Shown in pieces: positions 1-8,172 of a DNA stretch of 8,172 nucleotides. A model generated the notes under the pieces. It made no database searches and was not told where the DNA came from. It saw only the letters and a list, made by a program, of their open reading frames with translations. Source of the DNA: Pseudomonadota bacterium (lineage in GTDB: Bacteria; Pseudomonadota; Gammaproteobacteria; Halothiobacillales; Halothiobacillaceae); assembly GCA_021795795.1 (NCBI GenBank), contig JAJYPA010000358.1, positions 1 through 8,172 on the forward strand, given 5' to 3'. The position numbers were made by a program, and so were the translations under genes. The stretch's first letter is position 1. Each line of letters opens with the position of its first letter.

Positions 1-122
1 TCCGGCAGCATCCTGTGGAAACGGAATGTGGCACGCTCGATGGAGTTAATTGTTGGCGCAATGGGGCTAATGGCCGTTCTATTCCAGCGCATGCCAAGAC
101 TTTCAAAAAGTTGATTGGTCAT
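1..122 (-). CDS. Probable Fic-family protein, N-terminal fragment cut by the window edge
   Basis: An open frame on the minus strand starts with ATG at 122-120 and runs off the left edge, giving 40 codons. An AAGGAA ribosome site lies about 7 nt upstream of the ATG. The visible part begins MTNQLFESLG and ends IERATFRFHRMLP. The last stretch resembles the N-terminal helical region that precedes the catalytic core in a group of Fic/DOC proteins (my recollection of the family, not a search). Fic proteins usually transfer AMP or other nucleotides to target proteins. The HPFx(D/E)GNGR catalytic motif would lie outside the window, so activity cannot be judged. It lies 57 nt downstream of the 146-aa gene on the same strand and may share its transcript. 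The gene start is well supported; the family call is moderate. Confidence 0.55.
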   Translation of the reverse strand, partial: MTNQLFESLGMRWNRTAISPIAPTINSIERATFRFHRMLP

Positions 123-179
123 TTTAGTTCCTTGCGAAATGGTTCCCGCCCGCGATGGGTCAATCACTGCAGACGACGC

Positions 180-620
180 TCATTTCTCATAAAACTGATC
201 GGGCAACACCCTTATCGGCCATTCGCCTTTCTGATGGCCTACTGCCGCGTAATAAGCGGGCTCCATGGGTCCACCGTTTATATCGTCAAGCAACCATTGT
301 GGGTGTTCCAGAGACTCAGCCACCTTGGTCCGTATCAGGCTTAACAAGCCTTTATCCAGCACAGGCCCTGCGCCGAATCGAGCAATGCGGTTCGCACCAA
401 TGGCTATCGCAGTGATCGCCGCTTGCTGATCCTCAAGGCCCTTGAGCTTCGCATCCCATTCCTTCACCTGAAACAACACCGCCTCTGGATTGTAAGCCAG
501 GAAGCTATCCGCAGCTTGTGCCCACAGCGGCAGTTCTTTGTAGTTGCGTAGGCCGCTTCCAATCATGGATGACGCAGAATCAAGAGTGCGCTGTAATTCC
601 TGTATCTCCGGGTGGTTCAT
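180..620 (-). CDS. Hypothetical 146-aa soluble protein downstream of parE
   Basis: This is a complete ORF starting at ATG 620-618, with a purine-rich GAGAAAGG just upstream. I do not recognise a family. It looks soluble and mostly helical: an N-terminal helix (about residues 4-28), a middle segment around LFQVKEWDAKLKGLEDQQAA (about 49-68) that could form an amphipathic helix, and a short Ala/Ile-rich stretch after it that is too short and interrupted to be a clear membrane span. There are no Cys or His clusters and no signal peptide. It begins 15 nt after the parE stop on the same strand, so it probably belongs to that transcript, and is followed by the probable Fic gene. A role as partner or inhibitor of the Fic protein is possible from position alone. 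Confidence 0.65.
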   Translation of the reverse strand: MNHPEIQELQRTLDSASSMIGSGLRNYKELPLWAQAADSFLAYNPEAVLFQVKEWDAKLKGLEDQQAAITAIAIGANRIARFGAGPVLDKGLLSLIRTKVAESLEHPQWLLDDINGGPMEPAYYAAVGHQKGEWPIRVLPDQFYEK

Positions 621-635
621 AGCCTTTCTCCATGG

Positions 636-938
636 TCACGGTAGCTGTTGGGCAGCGTGTTTTATTCTCAGAACAAGTACCGCGCGAGATGCCGCAACCA
701 CCCGATAAAATACGATATAATTTGGATGCACCACCAACTCGCGCATATCGCCAGGCAGTCCAGGCCTCCCGCATCGTCCCATCTCGAGGTGCCGGGCAAG
801 ATGCCGTGTTTTGTCGCGCAATGCTTTGCCAAAATCCTTAGCCCGTGTCGGGTGTTCTTTGCCGATATGACGCACGATAGCGCGCAAGTCCTCCATGGCC
901 ATAGGCCGCCATTCAATACGATAATTCGCATCGGTCAC
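636..938 (-). CDS. parE: ParE/RelE-family toxin
   Basis: This 100-aa protein has the full ParE/RelE fold pattern: an N-terminal strand YRIEWRP, two helices (about 14-50), then GRCGRPGLPGDMRELVVH and the strand pair YIVFYRV...VLVLRIKHAAQQ. The GR-x-GRPG, RELVVHPNYIVFYRV and final KHAAQQ motifs are typical of the ParE branch, whose studied members poison DNA gyrase; RelE-branch members cleave ribosome-bound mRNA instead. I favour the ParE branch by motif. The start is a GTG at 938-936 that overlaps the antitoxin stop in a GTGA arrangement, which implies translational coupling. Length is normal for the family and no residue looks obviously missing, so the toxin is probably functional. The antitoxin is the gene immediately upstream. 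Confidence 0.88.
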   Translation of the reverse strand: MTDANYRIEWRPMAMEDLRAIVRHIGKEHPTRAKDFGKALRDKTRHLARHLEMGRCGRPGLPGDMRELVVHPNYIVFYRVVAASRAVLVLRIKHAAQQLP

Positions 939-1387
939 ACGCGGCTTCCCTGACCTGACACAAGGGCGGCAATTTCCGTGTCCAGCTCAGCTATAACTGC
1001 ATCGTGCGGAATGCCCGGGCGGGGATCGTCCACAGATTCCTGAATTTCGGCTGCCAGCCATTTGCCATACGCCGCGGCTTCATGCGCTTCCCGCATGGCT
1101 TCAGCGCGGCTTGACCGACTGCGCGAGACATCCTTTTGGGCGGGGTCCCACTCTGTCGTGTCCACCATGGCCACGGCGATACCGACATCACGCAACGCCA
1201 TCAATGCCGAACTGGGGTTTCCAAACCGGCGTGGCTCCGCGCTGCGAACCTTCGCCAGTACCGCGTCGTGGCCACTGCGCGTAGAGATTTCGACCACGAA
1301 GCCGCCGCCCCGCCCCTTTAACGTGACGCCCGTCACACCACCGGCATGCGCCGTAGCGCGCAATTGTTCCAGGGTCATACTGTGCAT
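935..1387 (-). CDS. PaaA2-like antitoxin with N-terminal extension, partner of ParE
   Basis: This is a 150-aa protein encoded directly before the ParE toxin with a 4-nt overlap. The C-terminal half (about 95-145), with AHEAAAYGKWLAAEIQESVD followed by DPRPGIPHDAVIAELDTEI, matches the pattern of PaaA2-type antitoxins, which wrap around ParE toxins through this segment (known for the family). The N-terminal 70 residues, containing VTLKGRGGGFVVEISTRSG and RRFGNPSSALMALRDVGI, form a compact alpha/beta domain often found on these longer antitoxins and probably handle DNA binding or dimerisation; that is inference. Two in-frame ATGs exist (1387 and 1378); I take the first, with AGGTGG about 7 nt upstream. 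It is first in the local transcript, so autoregulation by the toxin-antitoxin complex is expected. It looks intact. Confidence 0.85.
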   Translation of the reverse strand: MHSMTLEQLRATAHAGGVTGVTLKGRGGGFVVEISTRSGHDAVLAKVRSAEPRRFGNPSSALMALRDVGIAVAMVDTTEWDPAQKDVSRSRSSRAEAMREAHEAAAYGKWLAAEIQESVDDPRPGIPHDAVIAELDTEIAALVSGQGSRV

Positions 1388-1499
1388 TTCGCCACCACCT
1401 ATCTATCACCCATGACTATTTTATGCGGTTATTGTGCATTTTTGATAGAAACTGCGCAAGCGCGCTTATGCGCCCATCGTGTGGGGACCTGACCATGCG

Positions 1500-2651
1500 T
1501 CAGGGCTTCCGCCCGCCGTTCTTCCGATCAGGTGTTACCGCCGATTCAGCGGATGGCTTGCCGCCCGCCAAGTCCGGGTACTTCCAATGCTCCTGGGCCT
1601 GCCCATATTCATGCCCAAGCCCCAAGGTATAGGCCTCAAATACCCGGCCCCGATAGCCCTTGAGATAGTCGCGGGCCTCTTTCGCTAATTCCAGCTCGAT
1701 CTTCGCCTTTTGTAGATGTTCCGTGGCAGTTTCGCACATCCGGTTCACGACTTGGCTGTCCACATGGTCGATCAGCGCCATCAGCACCTTCGCGTCTTCC
1801 TCGCGCATGAGCGGTCGCACATCCTGATCCCGCTCTGCCAGCACCTTCTGCAAGGCAGGCAAGGTTAGATGTCCCTCGTGATGCAGGTTCACCAAGCCCA
1901 TCACCCATTCGTTTTTCACCTTGCCGACCATCTCCGGGTCGAGGTCCATGCGGTATTTGCCCGCCACCTGGAGCTTGTCGAACTCCTCACGAATCAGCGT
2001 TCCGGCACGGTCCAGCATCTTCCCCGCCTGTTCCAGACTCTTCTGTATCGCATCCCAGGTATGCCACTGTGCCCAGGACATTTGACCTGTACTCATGCCC
2101 ACTTGATTCTGAGGATTTAAGCGTCTCTCTGAAGTGCTATTGCCATATGCGAAAGTAAAGTGGAATGCTTCTACCGAGCGATCAGGCATACCGACATCCG
2201 AAAATATCCGCCGCCATCCACTGATCGCGTCAAGGCAGGATTCAATGATATGGGTTGCCTCTGCATCTGACACCCCGAAACTCAACAGATCCGACCGGGC
2301 ATTTTCCAGTGTGGCAGACCTCCCCCCACGGCCCAAGCCAATGGAAAGATCGAAGCTCGTACCTATACCCTCTCGGGCGATGCCGGGATTAATATCATAG
2401 GCGGGAGAGAGCCGCCAACCTTGGGTACCGGGTATGATTGCGTGATTGCGCAGGTGGTCATCTGTGTTGCGAATGAGTAGATTAAAAACCATACGCCGGA
2501 ACAGTTCCGTGCCAACCTGTACATGGCCGTTCTGCCTCAGCAGGCGGGCAATAGACGGGTAACTGCCCAGAGCATTTTCACTTTCATCAAGGTCCAGCAG
2601 TGTCAGCGCGCTGACAAATCCGAACCTCTGAAACCGTCCTGATGGACCCAA
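1500..2651 (-). CDS. Surviving 3' ORF of the hipA-type gene: kinase C-terminal lobe plus long helical extension
   Basis: This uninterrupted 383-aa frame holds the C-terminal lobe of a HipA-type Ser/Thr kinase. The catalytic loop reads NTDDHLRNHAI, with the expected catalytic Asp64 and Asn69; the metal-binding motif is SPAYDINP (Asp86). After about residue 175 the HipA pattern ends, and about 190 further residues follow: a charged, Gln- and Lys-rich, helix-prone region (for example KMLDRAGTLIREEFDKLQ and TEHLQKAKIELELAKEARDY). I do not recognise this part and it is not in standard HipA. The nominal start is a TTG at 2651 lying inside the kinase domain, with clear homology continuing upstream in the same and other frames, so this is a fragment of a broken gene. 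If translated it would lack the Gly-rich ATP loop and should not be an active kinase. Confidence 0.6.
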   Translation of the reverse strand: MGPSGRFQRFGFVSALTLLDLDESENALGSYPSIARLLRQNGHVQVGTELFRRMVFNLLIRNTDDHLRNHAIIPGTQGWRLSPAYDINPGIAREGIGTSFDLSIGLGRGGRSATLENARSDLLSFGVSDAEATHIIESCLDAISGWRRIFSDVGMPDRSVEAFHFTFAYGNSTSERRLNPQNQVGMSTGQMSWAQWHTWDAIQKSLEQAGKMLDRAGTLIREEFDKLQVAGKYRMDLDPEMVGKVKNEWVMGLVNLHHEGHLTLPALQKVLAERDQDVRPLMREEDAKVLMALIDHVDSQVVNRMCETATEHLQKAKIELELAKEARDYLKGYRGRVFEAYTLGLGHEYGQAQEHWKYPDLAGGKPSAESAVTPDRKNGGRKP

Positions 2652-2734
2652 ACTGCGGTCAAAACGCTTGCTCAGAAAGACGTGCCTCCATCCGGCAGGG
2701 TGATCAGACGTGTTTCCGGGCTATGAATGCCGGC

Positions 2735-2739
2735 GGACC
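2735..2739. repeat. Target-site duplication, left copy (GGACC)
   Basis: GGACC immediately outside the left inverted repeat, identical to 2976-2980 outside the right repeat. This is the footprint of the insertion into hipA. Confidence 0.8.
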
Positions 2740-2760
2740 TGTTAACGGACAATAGAGTAT
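2740..2760 (+). repeat. Terminal inverted repeat, left
   Basis: A 21-bp end starting TGTTAACGGAC. It pairs with the reverse complement of 2955-2975 with a single mismatch (G in place of A at 2755). Confidence 0.85.
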
Positions 2761-2864
2761 CTGTATTCTCTGCAACCTATTGATTGACGGCTCACGACGT
2801 CAGCCCCGCAACGGCAATGTATCATCCTGAACAGCCAGAGGAACCCCTTGTATGCTGCCATCAG

Positions 2865-2912
2865 AACAATAAAGTATCATCCTGATGTTTGTGCAACCGG
2901 TTGATTCTTCTC
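2865..2912 (+). repeat. Internal copy of the left-end region
   Basis: This stretch realigns with the left end of the element (2748-2790). Both carry ACAATA(A/G)AGTATC, then TGCAACC, then TTGATT, with a spacer of 13 bp here and 9 bp at the end. Another short copy, GTATCATCCTGA, starts at 2819. The 17-bp AATAAAGTATCATCCTG here is also a perfect inverted match to the right end. Such subterminal repeats are usually transposase binding sites; that function is inferred. Confidence 0.65.
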
Positions 2913-2954
2913 TATCGACGCGCTTTTGGCCAATTCTTGCCGCAATCCAGGATG

Positions 2955-2975
2955 ATACTTTATTGTCCGTTAACA
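2955..2975 (-). repeat. Terminal inverted repeat, right
   Basis: Reverse complement of the left end with one mismatch. Read inward it continues into ATCATCCTGG, and that extended motif recurs inside the element and at 3330-3357. Confidence 0.85.
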
Positions 2976-2980
2976 GGACC
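2976..2980. repeat. Target-site duplication, right copy (GGACC)
   Basis: Second copy of the 5-bp flank. One copy belongs to the ancestral hipA codons for Ala-Arg-Ser in the rebuilt ILARSAG stretch. Confidence 0.8.
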
Positions 2981-3329
2981 GTGCAAGAATGGCCGTTGCC
3001 TGTTCCACGGCGGGGACATCGACCATATCCGATATGTGCGGGGAATTTAGCAATCCAAAGCGCACCGTCGTGAAGTAGTGTGGTCTTCGGGCGCGCCCCA
3101 CCCATGCTCGATCCCTGCAACAGCAGACGTCCTACCGGTCGAAGTTCAGGGGGAATGTGGCCGTCCCGAGAGATGATCTCAGCTATATGATTGAAACATA
3201 GTTGTATGCTGGGCAGCCATGCTAATCAAACGGTTAGTGCATTTATGGGAAGCCTGGACGGTGATGGGGTTGTATACTGTAACTCCTCATCATTGAATTT
3301 TCTTCTAAAAAAAGATGTATACCAGCCAT

Positions 3330-3357
3330 TGTTTACGGACAAAAAATATCACCCTGG
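3330..3357 (+). mobile_element. Diverged second copy of the element end; possible remnant out to about 3475
   Basis: TGTTTACGGACAAAAAATAT followed by CACCCTGG aligns with the inward-reading right end of the 2740-2975 element, with about four differences including one gap. It sits where hipA similarity fades, so it may mark the junction that removed the hipA N-terminus. From here to the PIN gene stop at 3508 there is no recognisable gene, only a short minus-strand frame ending at 3349 (…IENLRRPG) that could be a transposase tail or chance. A matching opposite end and target duplication were not found; CCGTTAA near 3469 is the only weak candidate. Confidence 0.45.
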
Positions 3358-3507
3358 TCTGCGCAGGTTTTCTATCCCCGGTGTGCGGGTTACTTCCAAT
3401 GACAGGATCGCAGCGGAAGCTGCCGTTCGAACGTTACCAGCCGTTGGCATATGTATAAGCGGTAAATGCCGTTAATTGGCTGTGCCAAAGTGGCCCATCA
3501 GCCAGTT

Positions 3508-4005
3508 TCATGGTTCTACGCTCCATCGTTCTAATCGGCGACGGATTTCGGCTTGTGGTAATCGACAGCGAGGGTGCGATGCGATGCGCATAAGGCCATC
3601 ATATAATACTGACGTAGATGCTTGCTCTATAGCGGCTATCTGGTCGAGCAGCCACAATAAACCGTGGACAGTTACAGTGCGGCTTAGAGCTTCACTGCGG
3701 AGTGCCCTGTCGCCTGTCAAGAGCACGTAATTGGGTCGGAGCGCGCAACACAGCGCAAAGCAGTCTGGTAGGGAAAGCGCTCCCTGGTCGGACCATATTT
3801 GCTGCGCGAGGGAAACCTCGTCCGGCATCAGCGATAAAACACCTAGCCCAAGTGTACGCAAATATGGGCCGTTCTGGCTTTGAAGTTCCCTTTCGTAGAG
3901 AACGTCTGGTACAGCTATGGGCAAGCTGCATGAGAATGAGCCCTCCAGCAAACCTCCACGCCCCAAGTCAATCAAGACTGAAGTATCAGAAACGAGGATA
4001 GTCAT
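3508..4005 (-). CDS. PIN-domain ribonuclease (toxin-like), coupled to XRE-ImmA gene
   Basis: This 165-aa protein has the four acidic positions of a PIN nuclease: Asp7 in VSDTSVLIDL, Glu38 or Glu40 in LYEREL, Asp81 in LSLPDCFALCCA, and Asp99 in LLTGDRALRSEA. These bind Mg2+ or Mn2+ to cut RNA in VapC-like toxins (known for the family). A C-terminal tail of about 40 residues (from 125) extends past the minimal PIN core. The ATG at 4005-4003 overlaps the stop of the upstream XRE-ImmA gene by one base (TAATG), so the two are translated together. The upstream protein ends in a segment that looks like an antitoxin for PIN proteins, so I infer a toxin-antitoxin pair. The core acidic residues are all present. 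Confidence 0.85.
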   Translation of the reverse strand: MTILVSDTSVLIDLGRGGLLEGSFSCSLPIAVPDVLYERELQSQNGPYLRTLGLGVLSLMPDEVSLAQQIWSDQGALSLPDCFALCCALRPNYVLLTGDRALRSEALSRTVTVHGLLWLLDQIAAIEQASTSVLYDGLMRIASHPRCRLPQAEIRRRLERWSVEP

Positions 4006-5078
4006 TAATCATCCATGCCCAAACCTTTTAACCGCCGACATAGTTCCGGGCGGCTGATATCGAGGAGCTCCGCACCACGTGCTGCTGAGATAGCTTCCTC
4101 GGCGACTGCACGGAGGCAGAGGCGCTCCATGCGCTGGGGTACCTCCGCAACAAAACGATACGGTTCATTCGATGCGGGGCCGTTCCAGCCCAAGGATTGA
4201 AGCTGTGCCCAAATTCGACCATAAGCCACCTTAGACATGATACCTAGCTGCGAACAGCGCACTACAAGGGACGCTACACTGACCTTAAAAACCTTCTTTA
4301 TCTCTGCAAGCTCTCCCAGCGAAATTGACGTCCGATTTCGGCCCAGAAGGCGAAACATCATTTCGCTAGGCATCAAGAAAGCACCTGCAAAGCGATCGGC
4401 CGCCCGCTCAGCATCTTTATCCGCCAGAGATCCAGTAAGGAGAACAAGGTGAGCAAGCTCGTGTGCGAGCGTGAATCGTTGCCGTTCTCCATTATGCTGG
4501 TCATTAACCACGATGACGGGAATGTTCGGATGTCCCAGGCGACAAACGTATGCTTTAGACCCGGAAACGCTTTCAGGCAAGCTAAGCGCGATAACTTTAA
4601 TGCCATTTTCCTCGAGTAGCTCAGCCATGCTTGGGATCGGATCGCTGCCGAGCGACCACTTCGCGCGCAGATCATCACTGGCCGCCTCTGCGTCCACCAC
4701 GTTACTAAGTGGGAGAGGAGCTTCTTTGAGTTCGGTGACCGCGACTGAGAAGTCTGGGAATAGTTCTTCAAGCTCCAAATAGCGTTCTACCTTATCAAGA
4801 ACCGCGGCCGCTATGGCGCGCTCATCCCTTATCCCGGCCTGCGGTGCCTTACGGAAATCGACCTCAATCAAGTTTATGTCCCGCTTACTCATTAGGAACC
4901 CGAGCGAGACGTCCAGCGCCTTACACAAGGCAATCAGAACCGTCGAGCTTGGCATCATCTCATTGCGTTCATACTTCCCAATCGCCTGAGGGGAAATCAA
5001 TCCTTGAACGGCAGCCGCGAGCTCTCGCAACGATAGGCCACGGGCTTCTCGTGCCCTCTTTAACCGTCCCCCAATCAT
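4005..5078 (-). CDS. XRE-HTH regulator fused to ImmA/IrrE (COG2856) metallopeptidase, with C-terminal antitoxin-like tail
   Basis: The 357-aa protein has an XRE helix-turn-helix at residues 3-62 (GLSLRELAAAVQGLISPQAIGKYERN), a linker, and an ImmA/IrrE-type zinc peptidase domain at about 140-285. The zinc motif is HELAH (His206, Glu207, His210), followed by ERAADRFAGAFLMP, where Glu224 is the likely third ligand. ImmA-type enzymes cleave XRE repressors; fused forms can act as self-contained sensors. The last 40 residues (EEAISAARGAELLDISRPELCRRL) resemble the helical segment of UPF0175-type antitoxins that pair with PIN toxins; that is inference. The start at ATG 5078 has GGAGG upstream. It is divergent from the peptide/E2-E1/JAB operon and is the obvious candidate to bind the inverted repeat between them. 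It appears intact. Confidence 0.88.
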   Translation of the reverse strand: MIGGRLKRAREARGLSLRELAAAVQGLISPQAIGKYERNEMMPSSTVLIALCKALDVSLGFLMSKRDINLIEVDFRKAPQAGIRDERAIAAAVLDKVERYLELEELFPDFSVAVTELKEAPLPLSNVVDAEAASDDLRAKWSLGSDPIPSMAELLEENGIKVIALSLPESVSGSKAYVCRLGHPNIPVIVVNDQHNGERQRFTLAHELAHLVLLTGSLADKDAERAADRFAGAFLMPSEMMFRLLGRNRTSISLGELAEIKKVFKVSVASLVVRCSQLGIMSKVAYGRIWAQLQSLGWNGPASNEPYRFVAEVPQRMERLCLRAVAEEAISAARGAELLDISRPELCRRLKGLGMDD

Positions 5079-5097
5079 GTCGTCCTCCAGTTCAATG

Positions 5098-5134
5098 GTT
5101 TACAAGTTGACTTCATGGAGCTTAGTTTGTAAAC
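5098..5134. promoter_or_regulatory. Inverted-repeat operator candidate between the divergent units
   Basis: GTTTACAA at 5098-5105 and its exact reverse complement TTGTAAAC at 5127-5134 are separated by 21 bp. The right arm lies within a near-palindrome, AGTTTGTAAACT (5124-5135). The arms flank the promoter below, the right one covering its -10 box. This is a reasonable binding site for the divergent XRE protein, which would then repress the plus-strand operon and possibly itself. Binding is inferred. Confidence 0.6.
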
Positions 5135-5135
5135 T
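5107..5135 (+). promoter_or_regulatory. Sigma-70-type promoter for the peptide/E2-E1/JAB operon
   Basis: TTGACT at 5107-5112 and TAAACT at 5130-5135 are separated by exactly 17 bp. Transcription would start near 5142, just before the AGAGGAG ribosome site at 5152-5158 that serves the 44-aa peptide gene. Confidence 0.6.
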
Positions 5136-5167
5136 ACGAATCGTCAACGTTAGAGGAGATAGTCGTC

Positions 5168-5302
5168 ATGTCTGAAGAACCAAAGCGCGAACATTCCAAT
5201 CCCCCAAGCAAGAAACCAGAGCATCCTCCCGGACCTCAGCGCCATCATCCTGATCCTGGCCATGGTGCACCGAAGCCGCCGGATCATCGCCCGGTTGGCT
5301 GA
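5168..5302 (+). CDS. 44-aa Pro/His-rich peptide ending in Gly; candidate modifier or substrate of the E2-E1 enzyme
   Basis: The ORF begins ATG at 5168, with a strong AGAGGAG site 9 nt upstream, and ends in TGA at 5300-5302. The next gene's ATG follows after one base (TGAAATG). The peptide has 13 Pro, 6 His and 4 Lys in 44 residues and no hydrophobic core, so it should be disordered and cannot be a beta-grasp ubiquitin-like fold. It ends HRPVG, and its tail KPPDHRPVG echoes an internal KPEHPPG (residues 16-22). Position first in the operon, a good ribosome site and a C-terminal Gly suggest it is what the E1-E2 activates, much as Pup is a disordered conjugated tag, or as MccB (E1-like) acts on a short peptide. 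This is inference; I know of no named family. A role as a simple leader peptide is the alternative. Confidence 0.7.
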   Translation: MSEEPKREHSNPPSKKPEHPPGPQRHHPDPGHGAPKPPDHRPVG

Positions 5303-5303
5303 A

Positions 5304-7043
5304 ATGGCTAGTTGGTGGGAGCGGTATCCCGATATCTGGATTCGGGAGCAAGCAGCTCTCAAAGCCAGCGGGTACGTGTGGGATCAAGATCCGGCTTCTT
5401 TGTCCGCAGGCAAGATGGTACTGCGGATTTTAGCCCCACAGCCCGATGGCGTCCCATTGTCTGTGGAGTTCCCGGCGAGTTATCCCTATTTTCCTCCACA
5501 TGTCACGGCTGGCGTCCTGGTGGCTTCTCGCCACCAGCATCCGTTTGGCCGCAATTTCTGCCTGCTTGGTCGAGACAGTGCGGAGTGGGAGCCGGGCAAT
5601 GACACACTTGCAGGCATTCTCGATTCTCAGTTGCCGAAGATTCTTAAAGTGGACGCGAAGTTCGAGTGTGACACGGATTTCGTTGCGGCCAATGAGGATC
5701 ATGTTGGTGAGCCGCTGTCGCTGTATCTACCCTACCGGCTCGATAGCTGCGTGATAGTTCCCGATGACACCCCACCGCAGCTTCAACACGCTGGAAAACT
5801 GGTATTGTGGTCACGTCCAACGCCAGATTCATGGGGCAAGGTCTCATTTGTTGCGACGGTTGAAAAAATCGAGAACATGTACGGCAAGACAGTTGTCGAT
5901 GGACTGAAGAAGCTTGACGGATTCACCCAATCAGTGCCGGGCTTTTGGATGCGATTGGCGTCGCGTCCGGAGGAACGAGATGTTACCAAGCTCCTCCAGA
6001 TTCTCGTCCACGAGCTGACCAAAGCGAATTCCGATTTTCACAAAGCTATCCTCCGTGCCCGCAAAGGAGATGTCCTAGTGGCGGGATTTGTCTACCCAGA
6101 TGAGATCCGGTGGCGCAAATTCGGCGATGATTGGATTTTTTTGACGGTTGAGGTTACACAGAAGGCGAAGAGGTCGCGTCCTATGAGCTACCAGATTCAA
6201 CCTGTGCGGGCAGAGTGGGGCGGAGATAAGGCTTGGATGCAGCGTGCCCCTTTCTTGCAGCGACTACGCGACAAGAATGTCCTGATCATCGGCCTTGGTA
6301 GTCTGGGATCTCCAGTTGCGCTCCAACTGGCAAGGGCGGGGGTCAAAAACATTGACCTTGTCGATCACGATCACTTTCAAGTAGGAAACACGGTTCGGTG
6401 GGCTCTAGGCTGGCAGTACGCAGGCCTCAGCAAGGCGCGTGCGTTGGCGAGCTACATTCAACAAGAATATCCCCACACGGAAGCAACGCCATATGTGCTG
6501 CGCATCGGAGCTCCCCAGCTACCGGACGGTAGATCAGATGACGACATCATACGGCAGTTGATGGATCGCGCCGACCTAGTTGTAGATGCCTCAGCAGAGT
6601 TTCGCGTCAATCACTACCTGGCGGATCTGTGCAGCGAACTTGGTAAAGCGTACCTTTGGTTGACAACAACCCACGGGGCCGCCGGTGGAGTCGTCGGGAG
6701 AATCGTGCCCGGCCGCACGAAGGGCTGTTGGCATTGTTTTCAACACAGCTTAGGCGACAAGTCAATACGCCTCCCAGCGATGGTGAACGTTCGCGATATT
6801 CAAACTGCCGGATGCTCCGCGCCGACATTCGTGGGGGCTGGGGCGGATAGCGATGCGATTCCCGTGCTTGCAGCACGATTGGCGATCGCAACACTTTGTA
6901 TGGACGAGGCAGATTCGTATCCTGATTTTATATGGGATGTTGCTGTTGGTGACACTTATGGTGGAACAGTTCCCATTGCTCCAGTTTGGTCCAGTTACGT
7001 GCTCGAAAAAAATGAGGCTTGCCAAGCTTGCAAGCCCAAGTAG
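5304..7043 (+). CDS. Fused E2-E1 ubiquitin-type conjugation enzyme (Cap2-like architecture)
   Basis: I choose ATG 5304 (579 aa) over the in-frame ATG 5262, because 5304 directly follows the peptide stop and the protein pattern starts there. Residues 1-140 form an E2 (UBC-like) domain: VEFPASYPYFPPHV, then HQHPFGRNFCLL with Cys86 as the likely thioester cysteine, then W and TLAGIL in the usual order. About 180 residues of unrecognised linker domain follow. Residues 325-579 are a ThiF/E1 adenylation domain: nucleotide loop GLGSLGS from Gly330, DHDHFQVGNTVRW (Asp354, Asp356, Asn362, Arg365), and VVDASAEFRVN (Asp428). CWHC (475/478) and the terminal CQAC (573/576) probably bind zinc. Cys504 in TAGCSAPTF is the candidate E1 catalytic cysteine. 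All key residues are present. In CBASS, Cap2 joins the C-terminus of a CD-NTase to targets; no CD-NTase is visible here. Confidence 0.9.
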   Translation: MASWWERYPDIWIREQAALKASGYVWDQDPASLSAGKMVLRILAPQPDGVPLSVEFPASYPYFPPHVTAGVLVASRHQHPFGRNFCLLGRDSAEWEPGNDTLAGILDSQLPKILKVDAKFECDTDFVAANEDHVGEPLSLYLPYRLDSCVIVPDDTPPQLQHAGKLVLWSRPTPDSWGKVSFVATVEKIENMYGKTVVDGLKKLDGFTQSVPGFWMRLASRPEERDVTKLLQILVHELTKANSDFHKAILRARKGDVLVAGFVYPDEIRWRKFGDDWIFLTVEVTQKAKRSRPMSYQIQPVRAEWGGDKAWMQRAPFLQRLRDKNVLIIGLGSLGSPVALQLARAGVKNIDLVDHDHFQVGNTVRWALGWQYAGLSKARALASYIQQEYPHTEATPYVLRIGAPQLPDGRSDDDIIRQLMDRADLVVDASAEFRVNHYLADLCSELGKAYLWLTTTHGAAGGVVGRIVPGRTKGCWHCFQHSLGDKSIRLPAMVNVRDIQTAGCSAPTFVGAGADSDAIPVLAARLAIATLCMDEADSYPDFIWDVAVGDTYGGTVPIAPVWSSYVLEKNEACQACKPK

Positions 7044-7519
7044 ATATTCTCTGGCTTGATCGCCGAGTGCTCGTGCGGATCGAGCAGGAGGCAAGCCTCA
7101 TATACCCGCTTGAGACAGGAGGAGTCTTGGTCGGCTATGTGGGGGACAATGGTCAGCCAGTTGTCCATGAGGTCGTTGGTCCGGGACCAAAAGCGCTCCA
7201 TTTAGAAACTCGATTCGAGCCGGACCATGCGTGGCAATGTGAGCAACTCGATAGCTTGTTCTGGAATTCGTCAGGCCAATTGGTCTACTTAGGAGATTGG
7301 CATACCCATCCCAATGGAAGCCCCACGATGAGTGGTCTTGACCGGCGCACGATGCGCCGGATTGCGAGGCATGCAGAAGCGCGCATCAGTTATCCGCTCA
7401 TGCTTATTGAAGGTGGCAGCCCTGGCGCTTGGCAATTGGCAGTCCACCAATTCAAGCCGGCGAAATGGTTCGACCTGCTTTCTTCGGCTTCAGCGCTCGA
7501 AATCCAACTATTTTCTTGA
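7019..7519 (+). CDS. JAMM/JAB (Mov34/MPN-type) metallo-isopeptidase, Cap3-like
   Basis: This 166-aa protein has the complete JAMM zinc signature: Glu32 in LETGGVLVGY, then WHTHPNGSPTMSGLD, giving His95, His97, Ser105 and Asp108. Such proteins cut isopeptide or C-terminal peptide bonds next to a modifier's last Gly; in CBASS, Cap3 reverses Cap2 conjugation and can also process precursors. It overlaps the end of the E2-E1 gene. The start is uncertain: TTG at 7019 or TTG at 7028. The latter has GAGG about 10 nt upstream and may be the better one; no ATG fits. The mature C-terminus of the peptide gene already ends in Gly, so processing is not obviously needed and reversal of conjugation is the likelier role (inference). 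It appears intact. Confidence 0.87.
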   Translation: MPSLQAQVDILWLDRRVLVRIEQEASLIYPLETGGVLVGYVGDNGQPVVHEVVGPGPKALHLETRFEPDHAWQCEQLDSLFWNSSGQLVYLGDWHTHPNGSPTMSGLDRRTMRRIARHAEARISYPLMLIEGGSPGAWQLAVHQFKPAKWFDLLSSASALEIQLFS

Positions 7520-7553
7520 GTCAGGTTTAAGCAGGCTGCCCGCGTAAAAGTTC

Positions 7554-7618
7554 ACTGTCAATTCATGTTTCGGCTCCGACTGGAACGCCCGCTTCCAGTC
7601 TCAAACTGACAATTCATG
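7554..7618. repeat. Direct repeat pair flanking a hairpin between the JAB and higA genes
   Basis: ACTGTCAATTCATG (7554-7567) and ACTGACAATTCATG (7605-7618) match at 13 of 14 positions, 51 bp apart. The second copy includes the higA stop codon, so the first may be a duplicate of the higA 3' end left by recombination at the island edge. That history is inference. Confidence 0.5.
7578..7600. terminator. Hairpin between convergent genes, possible bidirectional terminator
   Basis: GACTGGAA (7578-7585) pairs perfectly with TTCCAGTC (7593-7600) around a 7-nt loop. It lies about 60 nt after the JAB stop and about 14 nt after the higA stop on the opposite strand. No T-run follows on either side, so it may be a weak or non-intrinsic terminator. 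Confidence 0.4.
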
Positions 7619-7895
7619 CGGCGATATGGCGCACCCCTCGTGCTACACCTCTTTGCCGCGCTTCCCACAGATCGAACGCCATTTGCATACGCAGCCAGAA
7701 CCCTGCCTCTATCCCCAAGGCAGCCTCTAGGCGGAGCGCCATACCTGCACTGATGCCAGCCCGGCCATTCAACACGGCCGACAACGATTGCCGCGTCACA
7801 TGGAGAGCCTTGGCGGCATCGGTGACGCTCATCCCCTCGGGCAAATATTCTCGTAGCACTTCACCCGGATGTGCAGGATTGTGCATTTCGCTCAT
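7614..7895 (-). CDS. higA: HigA antitoxin (XRE/VapI type)
   Basis: This 93-aa protein begins MSEMHNPAHPGEVLREYLPE and has an XRE helix-turn-helix MSVTDAAKALHVTRQSLSAVLNGRAG (about 22-47), then GISAGMALRLEAALGIEAGFWLRMQMAFDLW. These are hallmark segments of the HigA branch, which uses the order toxin-then-antitoxin seen here. It binds and neutralises HigB and represses the pair's promoter (family knowledge). GGAGGT lies between the higB stop and this ATG, only 9 nt apart, so the genes are coupled. Length and motifs are normal. Confidence 0.93.
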   Translation of the reverse strand: MSEMHNPAHPGEVLREYLPEGMSVTDAAKALHVTRQSLSAVLNGRAGISAGMALRLEAALGIEAGFWLRMQMAFDLWEARQRGVARGVRHIAA

Positions 7896-7904
7896 AGCAC
7901 CTCC

Positions 7905-8172
7905 TCAGTGGTAGTCCACATAATCCACCAGATCCGCATGAATCCCCTCGAACCGAAAGATCACTCGCCAGTTCCCATTCACACGCACTGACCAGTATTC
8001 TTCGTAGTTGCCCGTCAGTCGGTGTAATCGCCATCCCGGCGCATTCATCTGTTCCGCAGATTCTGCTGCATCCAAGGCGGTCAACAAGACCCGCAACTTG
8101 GTCGCGTGATCCGGCTGAATTCCCGCCTTACTGCCGCTGCGATAGAACGCCTCGAGCCCCTTGTGACGGAAC
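7905..8172 (-). CDS. higB: HigB toxin (RelE-like mRNA interferase), 5' end cut by the window edge
   Basis: The frame is open to the right edge and reads FRHKGLEAFYRSGSKAGIQP...GWRLHRLTGNYEEYWSVRVN...NWRVIFRFEG...DLVDYVDYH. This is the HigB pattern: the N-terminal F-x-HKGLE-x-FY, the central WSVRVNGNWRVIFRF strand pair and the final DYH. An ATG at 8096 falls in the middle of the domain and is not the true start; only the first few residues (probably M-I-x-S or similar) lie outside the window. HigB cleaves translating mRNA at the ribosome. It precedes higA, as is usual for this family. Confidence 0.92.
   Translation of the reverse strand, partial: FRHKGLEAFYRSGSKAGIQPDHATKLRVLLTALDAAESAEQMNAPGWRLHRLTGNYEEYWSVRVNGNWRVIFRFEGIHADLVDYVDYH

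Follow-up and report, generated by a model that had tools for sequence, protein, structure and literature searches.

To our knowledge, all known E1-E2 conjugation systems carry a folded modifier, which is either a beta-grasp protein or a CBASS cyclase. The modifier of Bub operons is a ubiquitin-like folded protein. A short, disordered protein modifier is found in actinobacterial pupylation, but Pup relies on a different chemistry from E1-E2: it is attached by PafA without E1 or E2, feeds the proteasome, and has a C-terminal GGE/GGQ tail. For Bil, the available text of PMC11354881 describes the modifier as a ubiquitin-like folded protein.

Here we analyzed an operon on an 8,172-nucleotide stretch of DNA from a Halothiobacillaceae bacterium (GCA_021795795.1, contig JAJYPA010000358.1, positions 1 to 8,172; the whole stretch is referred to as the window). 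The closest machinery to that of this operon is CBASS Cap2/Cap3. We consider it likely, with a probability of about 0.75, that the operon encodes a stand-alone ubiquitin-like conjugation system in which a Pro-rich, intrinsically disordered peptide serves as the modifier, a JAMM protease matures and removes it, and the likely role is stress-induced defence.

A three-gene operon with a real peptide gene

The operon consists of three tightly packed genes encoding a short peptide (sequence MSEEPKREHSNPPSKKPEHPPGPQRHHPDPGHGAPKPPDHRPVG), an E2-E1 fusion, and a JAMM protease (Table 1). In the window, one base separates the peptide stop from the E2-E1 start, and the start of the JAB gene overlaps the end of the E2-E1 gene by 25 bases. 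The three coupled ORFs of the original prediction, with a strong ribosome site before the peptide, were found at the places it had named. We compared the peptide gene with that of the nearest readable relative (locus L001) and obtained a pN of 0.129 and a pS of 0.615. Because silent-site differences are nearly five times as frequent as replacement differences, the 44-codon ORF is a real gene under purifying selection. This bias was absent from the other two frames of the peptide region in the same comparison.

Table 1 Features of the peptide operon and its divergent neighbors in the window.
Feature	Coordinates	Strand	Evidence
PIN-like protein next to the XRE-IrrE gene, toxin-antitoxin-like pair	3508..4005	-	PIN match E 0.0077, weak, below Pfam cut-off
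Divergent XRE HTH + IrrE/ImmA metalloprotease, probable regulator	4005..5078	-	PF01381, PF06114; PADLOC
Inverted repeat GTTTACAA-N21-TTGTAAAC, probable operator in divergent promoter region	5098..5134	.	Counterpart in L001
Ribosome-binding site of the peptide gene, AGAGGAG	5152..5158	+	Direct reading of sequence; nine bases 5' of ATG
Proposed modifier, 44-aa Pro/His/Gly-rich peptide, presumably disordered, C-terminal H-R-P-V-G	5168..5302	+	ORF, purifying selection, upstream position, profile hits
E2-E1 fusion, 579 aa; C86, GxGxxG 330-335, C504, Zn-type C475/C478/C573/C576	5304..7043	+	Pfam ThiF, alignment, AlphaFold2, Foldseek
JAB/JAMM isopeptidase, Cap3-like; start TTG 7019 or nearby codon	7019..7519	+	PF14464, PADLOC JAB, intact JAMM motif

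The C-terminal tail of the peptide is conserved across distant bacteria

A Pro-rich peptide was found just 5' of E2-E1 in all 17 clade loci with readable upstream DNA, which represent 14 distinct lineages with E2-E1 identity to the window as low as 26-28%. No Pro-rich peptide was found 5' of eight control E2-E1 genes. The count does not include L002 and L003, which begin within E2-E1, or the Rhizobium loci L025 and L027, which hold only E2-E1 fragments (L025 with a partial peptide). L004 duplicates L001 and L023 duplicates L009. The E2-E1 start was reassigned here, and differs from the annotation, in L015, L017, L018, and L026, and the copy in L014, one of the 17, looks broken. A single-sequence search with the window peptide matched only itself, and its relatives were reached only with a 14-peptide profile. 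The window peptide had no match in Pfam, NCBIfam, or PADLOC.

The tails in the 17 loci end in V-G (14), V-A (1), or VG followed by one or two residues (2, VGR and VGQQ); one database peptide ends in VGSC, and these extended tails would need trimming. With short extensions trimmed, the end is V-G in 40 of the 43 distinct peptides and V-A in three; Val stands at -2 in all 43 and Arg at -4 in 40, and conservation is strongest at the extreme C-terminus, although these tail statistics are partly biased because 29 of the 43 came from a profile containing the tail. A reading-frame test made without the peptide profile found all 14 other homologs compatible with a VG-stop end in the overlapping frame, compared with 1.8% of random 4-mers. 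The tail is thus conserved across distant bacteria, far past close relatives. The original prediction had called for a conserved short upstream ORF, which was borne out, and for a terminal Gly, which, once the extended tails are trimmed, holds apart from the V-A minority. It had also described the peptide as Pro/His-rich; the Pro-rich part applies to 17 of 17 loci, while the His-rich part is typical and not required (0-10 His in 29 database peptides, most of them His-rich). The residues F, I, L, W, Y, and C make up 0.9% of the last 40 residues of the 43 peptides, so a globular fold is not expected.

We asked how these patterns fit a leader peptide, in which ribosome stalling on the Pro run would tune E2-E1 translation while the real modifier, ThiS/MoaD or an unlinked protein, lies elsewhere. 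A very Pro-rich ORF directly 5' of E2-E1, one base away in 6 of the 17 loci, would suit such a leader. However, the gap between peptide stop and E2-E1 start ranges from -1 to 32 bases, the control E2-E1 genes lack the peptide, and stalling does not require the Val and Arg positions, partly profile-biased as their counts are. We regard a leader peptide as unlikely. The persistence of its tail across distant bacteria makes it probable that the tag is the peptide itself, and the pathway would then be ubiquitin-like while doing without the ubiquitin fold.

The enzymes resemble Cap2 and Cap3

The E2-E1 protein matches the ThiF/E1 domain PF00899 (1.7e-26, Pfam) and the PADLOC E1-E2 model (5.1e-39). 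Its cysteines and ATP motif had been predicted to be intact, and Cys86, Cys504, and G330/G332/G335 of GxGxxG, together with C475, C478, and C573, are invariant across 32 aligned sequences; C576 is conserved in at least 90% of them. An AlphaFold2 model (mean pLDDT 88.5) had Cap2 (7to3_A) as its best Foldseek match, which covered nearly the whole chain at 17% identity (E 4.4e-21). A second look at the fold with VIA gave E1-type matches, and a Cap2 chain was absent among the best 50 matches listed. By its modelled fold, the E2-E1 is a Cap2 relative. Structures of the Cap2 adenylation domain are available, among them 7tsx, whose title gives Cap2 bound to the C-terminus of CdnD02.

The predicted JAMM protease was likewise recovered, with matches to PF14464 (1.6e-12, Pfam) and PADLOC JAB (6.2e-27) and an intact motif (HTHPNGSPTMSGLD plus ETGGVLVG). 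Its NCBIfam Cap3 score was 46.4, below the cut-off of 200. A JAMM motif (H-x-H-x(7-8)-S-x-x-D) adjoins all 17 loci as well as L002 and L003.

MccB occurs among the fold matches of E2-E1 with both Foldseek and VIA. This would fit a peptide that is the precursor of a small product (RiPP or metallophore), whose C-terminus the E1 would activate in the manner of MccB, with accessory roles for the E2 and JAB; the His-richness of most peptides and the copper or cadmium genes flanking L010 and L013 point the same way. However, MccB works without E2 or JAMM and the E2 cysteine is invariant here, export, leader-peptidase, and tailoring genes were not seen to recur in the flanks, and metal genes adjoin few loci. 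We regard a precursor role as unlikely. Metal binding as the main role was rejected: metal genes were seen beside L010 and L013, with mercury-type genes near L028 (L039), and His content is variable.

We constructed a tree of the E2-E1 proteins. A branch with support 93/85 separates the 24 rows labelled peptide-linked, which span several phyla, from the 6A enzymes and the cyclase-linked ones; this support is just below the tool's 95% mark, and the deep branches are long. Twelve of the 24 rows are protein records: the window's own, one identical to L028, one nearly identical to L001, and nine others, of which P0026 is backed by the frame test only and the remaining eight lack upstream evidence. 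The tree does not include L014, L016, L018, and L026.

No conventional partner was recognized

The original prediction had seen neither a CD-NTase nor a beta-grasp partner, and we recognized neither in the window's operon. ORFs and Pfam revealed no CD-NTase in the window and no nucleotide-activated effector gene in its operon. No CD-NTase was annotated or recognized in the DNA flanking the clade loci retrieved (the PLSDB gene table being incomplete), no ubiquitin-fold gene was recognized beside clade loci, and we saw no recurring effector gene downstream of them. A CD-NTase encoded elsewhere had been named as the finding that would overturn the prediction; SMODS matched in none of the four other whole genomes searched, and the control matched in 3 of 14 genomes. 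A Pfam scan of ten window proteins gave no match to a PafA/Dop-type ligase.

The Cap2/Cap3-like enzymes, and the equivalent position that cyclases hold in CBASS, could also suggest a decayed CBASS that has lost its cyclase and kept only the tail. Against this, the peptide is under purifying selection, the peptide-linked enzymes, from several phyla, group on a single side of the tree, the tail is conserved in every readable locus, and no SMODS cyclase was found in the four genomes. We consider decay very improbable, and a free peptide modifier remains the preferred reading.

At control loci, five of six cyclases directly 5' of E2-E1 end in Ala, which fits the Gly/Ala tail rule given for CBASS Cap2 substrates, with Ala working in part, in the available text of PMC10097602. 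The cyclase of L033 ends in Pro and the MBL of L031 in Gln, so the rule is not universal. The upstream MBL-like proteins have the C-termini KPMGGQ (L031) and KPMG (L037). We consider a full E1-E2-isopeptidase pathway with a foldless, free Pro-rich tail as its modifier somewhat more likely than not. More broadly, E2-E1/JAMM pairs may form a single machine gripping Gly/Ala-ended tails, in front of which the payload is interchangeable: a metallo-hydrolase, a cyclase of CBASS or of Pycsar, or nothing at all.

Regulation and distribution

The inverted repeat has a counterpart in the same place in L001 (GTTTACA-N23-TGTAAAC). The XRE-IrrE gene matched RmrA (6.5e-56), capP (2e-18), and capH (1.2e-7) in PADLOC; by sequence its product appears RmrA-like and also resembles CapH joined to CapP. 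L001 has an XRE-IrrE gene in the equivalent place and a PIN-like counterpart (E 0.0033, likewise below cut-off). DNA-damage-type regulators were found in only 3 of the 17 loci (the window, L001, and L028). For Bub operons, the available part of PMC13373217 gives CapW or CapH+CapP regulators in 219 of 544.

Four surveys found the system in 2/398, 1/397, 3/369, and 1/301 genomes, which suggests that it is rare; the surveys overlap, differ in queries and cut-offs, and include centre genomes already known to match. In the rows listed, no more than 3 or 4 candidates were scored for each genome, and some members may have been missed. A pattern matched 28 stretches of viral contigs, none of which encodes a relative. 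Seven phage records had a match, none reaching 80% query coverage, and the window DNA had no near match among plasmids.

Proposed pathway

For the chemistry, targets, induction, and defence role of the operon we infer the following course. The E1 domain would adenylate the C-terminal Gly of the peptide, which would then be carried as a thioester, first on C504 and next on C86 in the fused E2. This E2 domain would join it to target proteins encoded outside the operon, probably on lysines. The JAMM protease would take the peptide off targets and also mature precursors with residues beyond VG, as in some relatives. This would resemble the action of type II CBASS Cap2/Cap3 on the cyclase C-terminal tail, but with a free-standing tail and no cyclase. 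The divergent HTH-IrrE regulator probably turns the operon on under stress, such as DNA damage, and the operon probably acts in anti-phage or mobile-element defence.

A 44-residue tail serving as the whole modifier would separate what the E1-E2 machinery needs, the tail, from the function of the tag. R-P bonds are poorly cut by trypsin, and 28 of the 43 peptides have an R-P-V-G/A tail, so adducts would leave no short tryptic remnant. For this reason they may escape routine proteomics.

Comparison with known systems

No paper describing the peptide was recognized in the literature searched, a scope without subscription papers and preprints. The portions of Iyer et al. 2006 available (PMC1779556) list row 6b (NGR234a plasmid and Actinobacteria 'Asp.') with a nucleotidyltransferase and row 6c (RhNGR234), in which Cys replaces the E2 His, with a metal-binding protein. 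Judging from these abbreviations, L012, L013, and L024 may be row 6b/6c entries, and the HC motif in L017, L020, and L024 is reminiscent of the Cys-for-His of row 6c. The text and Table 1 of that paper, in the portions available, do not mention a peptide for these rows, whereas here a Pro-rich peptide lies directly upstream at these loci.

The 6A-MBL systems have a related E2-E1, but their partner is an MBL enzyme, their JAB is fused (PMC1779556 Table 1, as available), and they lie on a different tree branch. The window scored 87.3 against a cut-off of 320 for NCBIfam NF058523, the 6A-MBL test; its JAB is a separate gene, and no MBL match was found among the window proteins scanned. Bil and Bub are also bacterial operons with E1, E2, and JAMM, but unlike these and 6d and 6e, no beta-grasp modifier was recognized in the operon, and the peptide family is almost without hydrophobic residues. 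The peptide shares with Pup its shortness and disorder, but its tail is HRPVG and not GGE/GGQ. The original prediction of a Pup-like modifier driven by E1/E2 chemistry thus gains support from the conserved ORF and its V-G/V-A tails, with 'Pup-like' apt only in the sense of short and disordered.

Unlike type II CBASS, the operon has no recognized CD-NTase, SAVED, or other effector, its partner is instead a short peptide that is rich in Pro and carries a nearly invariant R-x-V-G tail, and the peptide-linked E2-E1 proteins occupy a separate side of the tree. It shares with type II CBASS a Cap2-type E2-E1 with the same domain order and fold (7to3_A), an adjoining Cap3-type JAMM, and an upstream partner that usually ends in Gly or Ala.

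A proline-rich peptide with a conserved tail precedes E2-E1

We read the DNA upstream of E2-E1 in 17 clade loci (the window, L001, L009-L018, L020, L024, L026, L028, and L030). The original prediction of a conserved short upstream ORF was borne out, as all 17 carry a peptide rich in Pro (30-50% of its last 40 residues) that ends from 1 base inside to 32 bases before the E2-E1 start. The predicted C-terminal Gly was found in most relatives but not in all: 14 of the 17 peptides end in V-G, while the others end in VGR (L009), VGQQ (L010), and VA (L030). The printed tails are identical and the hosts closely related in L016/L012, L018/L017, and L026/L015, so the 17 loci represent 14 lineages. Among the named hosts are Sinorhizobium, Sphingobium, Indioceanicola, Arthrobacter, Iamia, and Hymenobacter. 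Only 22 of 1,996 ORFs of at least 30 aa in the clade and control loci end in VG, and the 14 peptides are among these 22.

A frame test that uses no profile also agrees with the tail. Among the E2-E1 homologs listed, a pattern search collected 15, including the window, that had been called with an N-terminal extension of at least 8 residues; such extensions are really the upstream gene read in an overlapping frame. In all 15, the residues ahead of the true E2-E1 start are compatible, when read in the peptide frame, with ..V-G-stop and a gap of one base. This is also true of 1.8% of random 4-mers, and since the homologs are related and not independent draws, we attach no probability.

We searched 5.8 billion proteins with a profile of 14 peptides (E up to 10). 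Of the 30 matches, one was the window peptide, and 12 of the 29 others had E < 1e-3. The 29 tails were VG (26), VA (2), and VGSC (1), which is partly circular because the profile includes the tail. Contig size and source agree between peptide match P0131 and E2-E1 match P0018 (23,406 bases) and between P0134 and P0104 (7,690 bases), so each pair probably lies on one contig. Across 43 distinct peptides, once short extensions are removed, V occupies -2 in 43, G occupies -1 in 40 and A in 3, and R at -4 and P at -7 each occur in 40. Pro makes up 37% of their last 40 residues, and F/I/L/W/Y/C together 0.9%. A peptide of this composition should not fold on its own.

Plasmid pNGR234a carries two diverged peptide-E2-E1-JAB operons, L012 and L024, with different tails (HRPVG and KHVG). 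In the 83-aa match P0146 (E 0.11), the Pro-rich tail follows a charged N-terminal part that may be helical, suggesting that payloads can be added before the tail.

The nearest readable relative, L001 (E2-E1 69% identical), has a 44-aa peptide at the equivalent position. In this single pair of 44 codons, the peptide differs by 0.615 silent and 0.129 replacement differences per site, compared with 0.586 and 0.186 for E2-E1. Silent differences in the peptide are nearly five times as frequent as replacement differences, a pattern absent from the two shifted frames (silent/replacement 0.075/0.309 and 0.258/0.250). Selection on the peptide's protein sequence is therefore no weaker than that on E2-E1.

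Features of the window and of other loci
Locus	Feature	Position	Strand	Remark
Window	ParE-type	636-938	-	
Window	PaaA2-type antitoxin	935-1387	-	
Window	HipA_C-type	1500-2651	-	
Window	PIN-like gene and XRE-IrrE regulator	3508-5078	-	just upstream of operon
Window	Peptide gene, 44 codons	5168-5302	+	
Window	E2-E1 fusion	5304-7043	+	starts 1 base past peptide stop
Window	JAMM protease	7019-7519	+	overlaps E2-E1 3' end
Window	HigA	7614-7895	-	downstream of operon
Window	HigB-like	7905-8171	-	downstream of operon; runs off window
L014	Apparently split E1 and JAB	3031-5334		
L019	Gene directly upstream of E2-E1: CD-NTase (PADLOC)			ends RFA
L022	Same position: CD-NTase (PADLOC)			ends QGA
L036	Same position: CD-NTase (PADLOC)			ends GFA
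L021	Same position: Pycsar cyclase (PADLOC PycC 1.5e-76)			ends KPAGFA
L021	Pycsar cyclase, E2-E1, JAB, TIR gene	27-2389		cyclase start beyond record end
L033	Directly upstream of E2-E1: annotated cyclase or nucleotidyltransferase			ends ALP
L035	Same position: annotated cyclase or nucleotidyltransferase			ends QGA
L031	Same position: matches metallo-beta-lactamase family	711-1742		ends KPMGGQ
L037	Same position: metallo-beta-lactamase match just under cut-off	664-1737		ends KPMG

Predicted conjugation enzymes and proposed mechanism

C86, C504, and the adenylation loop of E2-E1 are invariant in alignment A1 (32 sequences) and in the wider A2 (17 sequences). Many members share R-H-Q-[NH]-P-x-G-x-N-L-C-L-L around C86, with H-C in the corresponding motif of L017, L020, and L024. 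Eukaryotic E2s carry an HPN..C motif, which this motif resembles. The AlphaFold2 model of E2-E1 has a mean pLDDT of 88.5 and is least certain in the C504 loop (500-512). Its top solved Foldseek match was Enterobacter cloacae Cap2 (7to3_A, E 4.4e-21, TM 0.63, 17% identity), followed by Cap2 7tqd_B and Atg7. The VIA structure comparison returned E1-type matches (UBA5, MoeB, ThiF, MccB, and others), mainly over residues 303-579, and no Cap2 chain was among the matches listed. Support for the E2 half thus comes from Foldseek, PADLOC, and the motif.

A JAMM motif (spacing 7 or 8) adjoins all 17 clade loci as well as L002 and L003. In L014, on an Iamia plasmid, the annotation divides E1 into two genes and the JAB motifs are spread over two frames, which may mean that the copy is broken or was misread.

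The conserved peptide and tail, the E1, E2, and JAMM motifs, and the coupling of the genes are all observed in the operon. In the mechanism we propose, E2-E1 would adenylate Gly44 of the peptide, which would be carried as a thioester on C504 and C86 and attached to a lysine, and JAMM would take it off again. JAMM may also mature peptide precursors, since some relatives carry residues beyond VG. No target gene was seen to recur in the operons, so host or phage proteins are the probable targets.

Peptide-linked and control E2-E1 proteins

We constructed a tree of 32 E2-E1 proteins, comprising 24 labelled peptide-linked (8 of them without upstream evidence), 6 cyclase-linked, and 2 6A rows; the rooting is arbitrary and the deep branches are long. 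A branch with support of 93/85, just below the tool's star mark, separates all 24 peptide-linked rows from the cyclase-linked and 6A rows; the 24 lie together on one side in 94% of bootstrap trees.

Five of the six control cyclases end in Ala (L033 is the exception), and one of the two metallo-beta-lactamase (MBL) proteins ends in Gly. For CBASS with Cap2 and Cap3, PMC10097602 describes a C-terminal Gly or Ala that is highly conserved and preceded by variable residues; in the E. coli system, conjugation was abolished by removal of the Gly. The peptides follow this rule, but with a much stricter tail.

In L021, a Pycsar cyclase directly precedes E2-E1 and JAB, and a TIR gene comes next; conjugation of the cyclase looks possible. 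The L031 and L037 tails look as if the MBL-like protein encoded upstream of the 6A-type E2-E1 could itself be the conjugated substrate, for which the L031 protein would need trimming.

Regulation and genomic context

All other recognised genes among those scanned in the window are on the minus strand, and the window is crowded with toxin-antitoxin-type genes (636-2651 and 7614-8171). The divergent XRE-IrrE gene matches RmrA (6.5e-56), capP (2e-18), and capH (1.2e-7) in PADLOC. The 89-bp intergenic region between it and the operon holds an inverted repeat, GTTTACAA-N21-TTGTAAAC, with a positional counterpart in L001. The PIN-like and XRE-IrrE pair adjoins the conjugation operon in L001 too, and the regulator may act on the toxin-like PIN gene as well as on the divergent operon. 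According to PMC13373217, CapH+CapP and CapW regulators turn on adjacent immune operons upon DNA damage, and the pair recalls the CapK/CapS plus VapC-like operons described there. Divergent genes were also found at L028 (WYL-domain, a candidate CapW) and at L012, L015, L016, and L026 (Xre-RES); no comparable pattern was noticed at the other ten of the 17 clade loci.

Several clade loci are on conjugative plasmids. L038 has Trb-like transfer genes and an OLD-like ATPase; L039, a record near L028, has mercury-resistance-like genes, an IS66 transposase, a NotI-type restriction enzyme, a cytosine methylase, and Vsr; and L040 has TniQ and Tn7-like genes. The Trb, mer, and TnsA/B names were assigned by reading the sequences, and the putative L040 TnsA and TnsB have no Pfam match. 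These contexts look mobile. A defence role for the operon is likely.

Comparison with known systems

In Iyer et al. 2006 (PMC1779556), row 6b (NGR234a plasmid and actinobacterial 'Asp.') is described with a nucleotidyltransferase and row 6c (RhNGR234) with a metal-binding protein, whereas L012, L024, and L013, which may be these entries, have a Pro-rich peptide, with no nucleotidyltransferase annotated in their fetched flanks. We found no description of the peptide in the literature searched, although papers beyond its reach may hold one. The operon lacks defining features of CBASS, beta-grasp systems, 6A-MBL (E2-E1-JAB fusion with metallo-beta-lactamase), and Pup. The proposed modifier is Pup-like only in being short and presumably disordered; among known systems, the operon would work most like CBASS conjugation.
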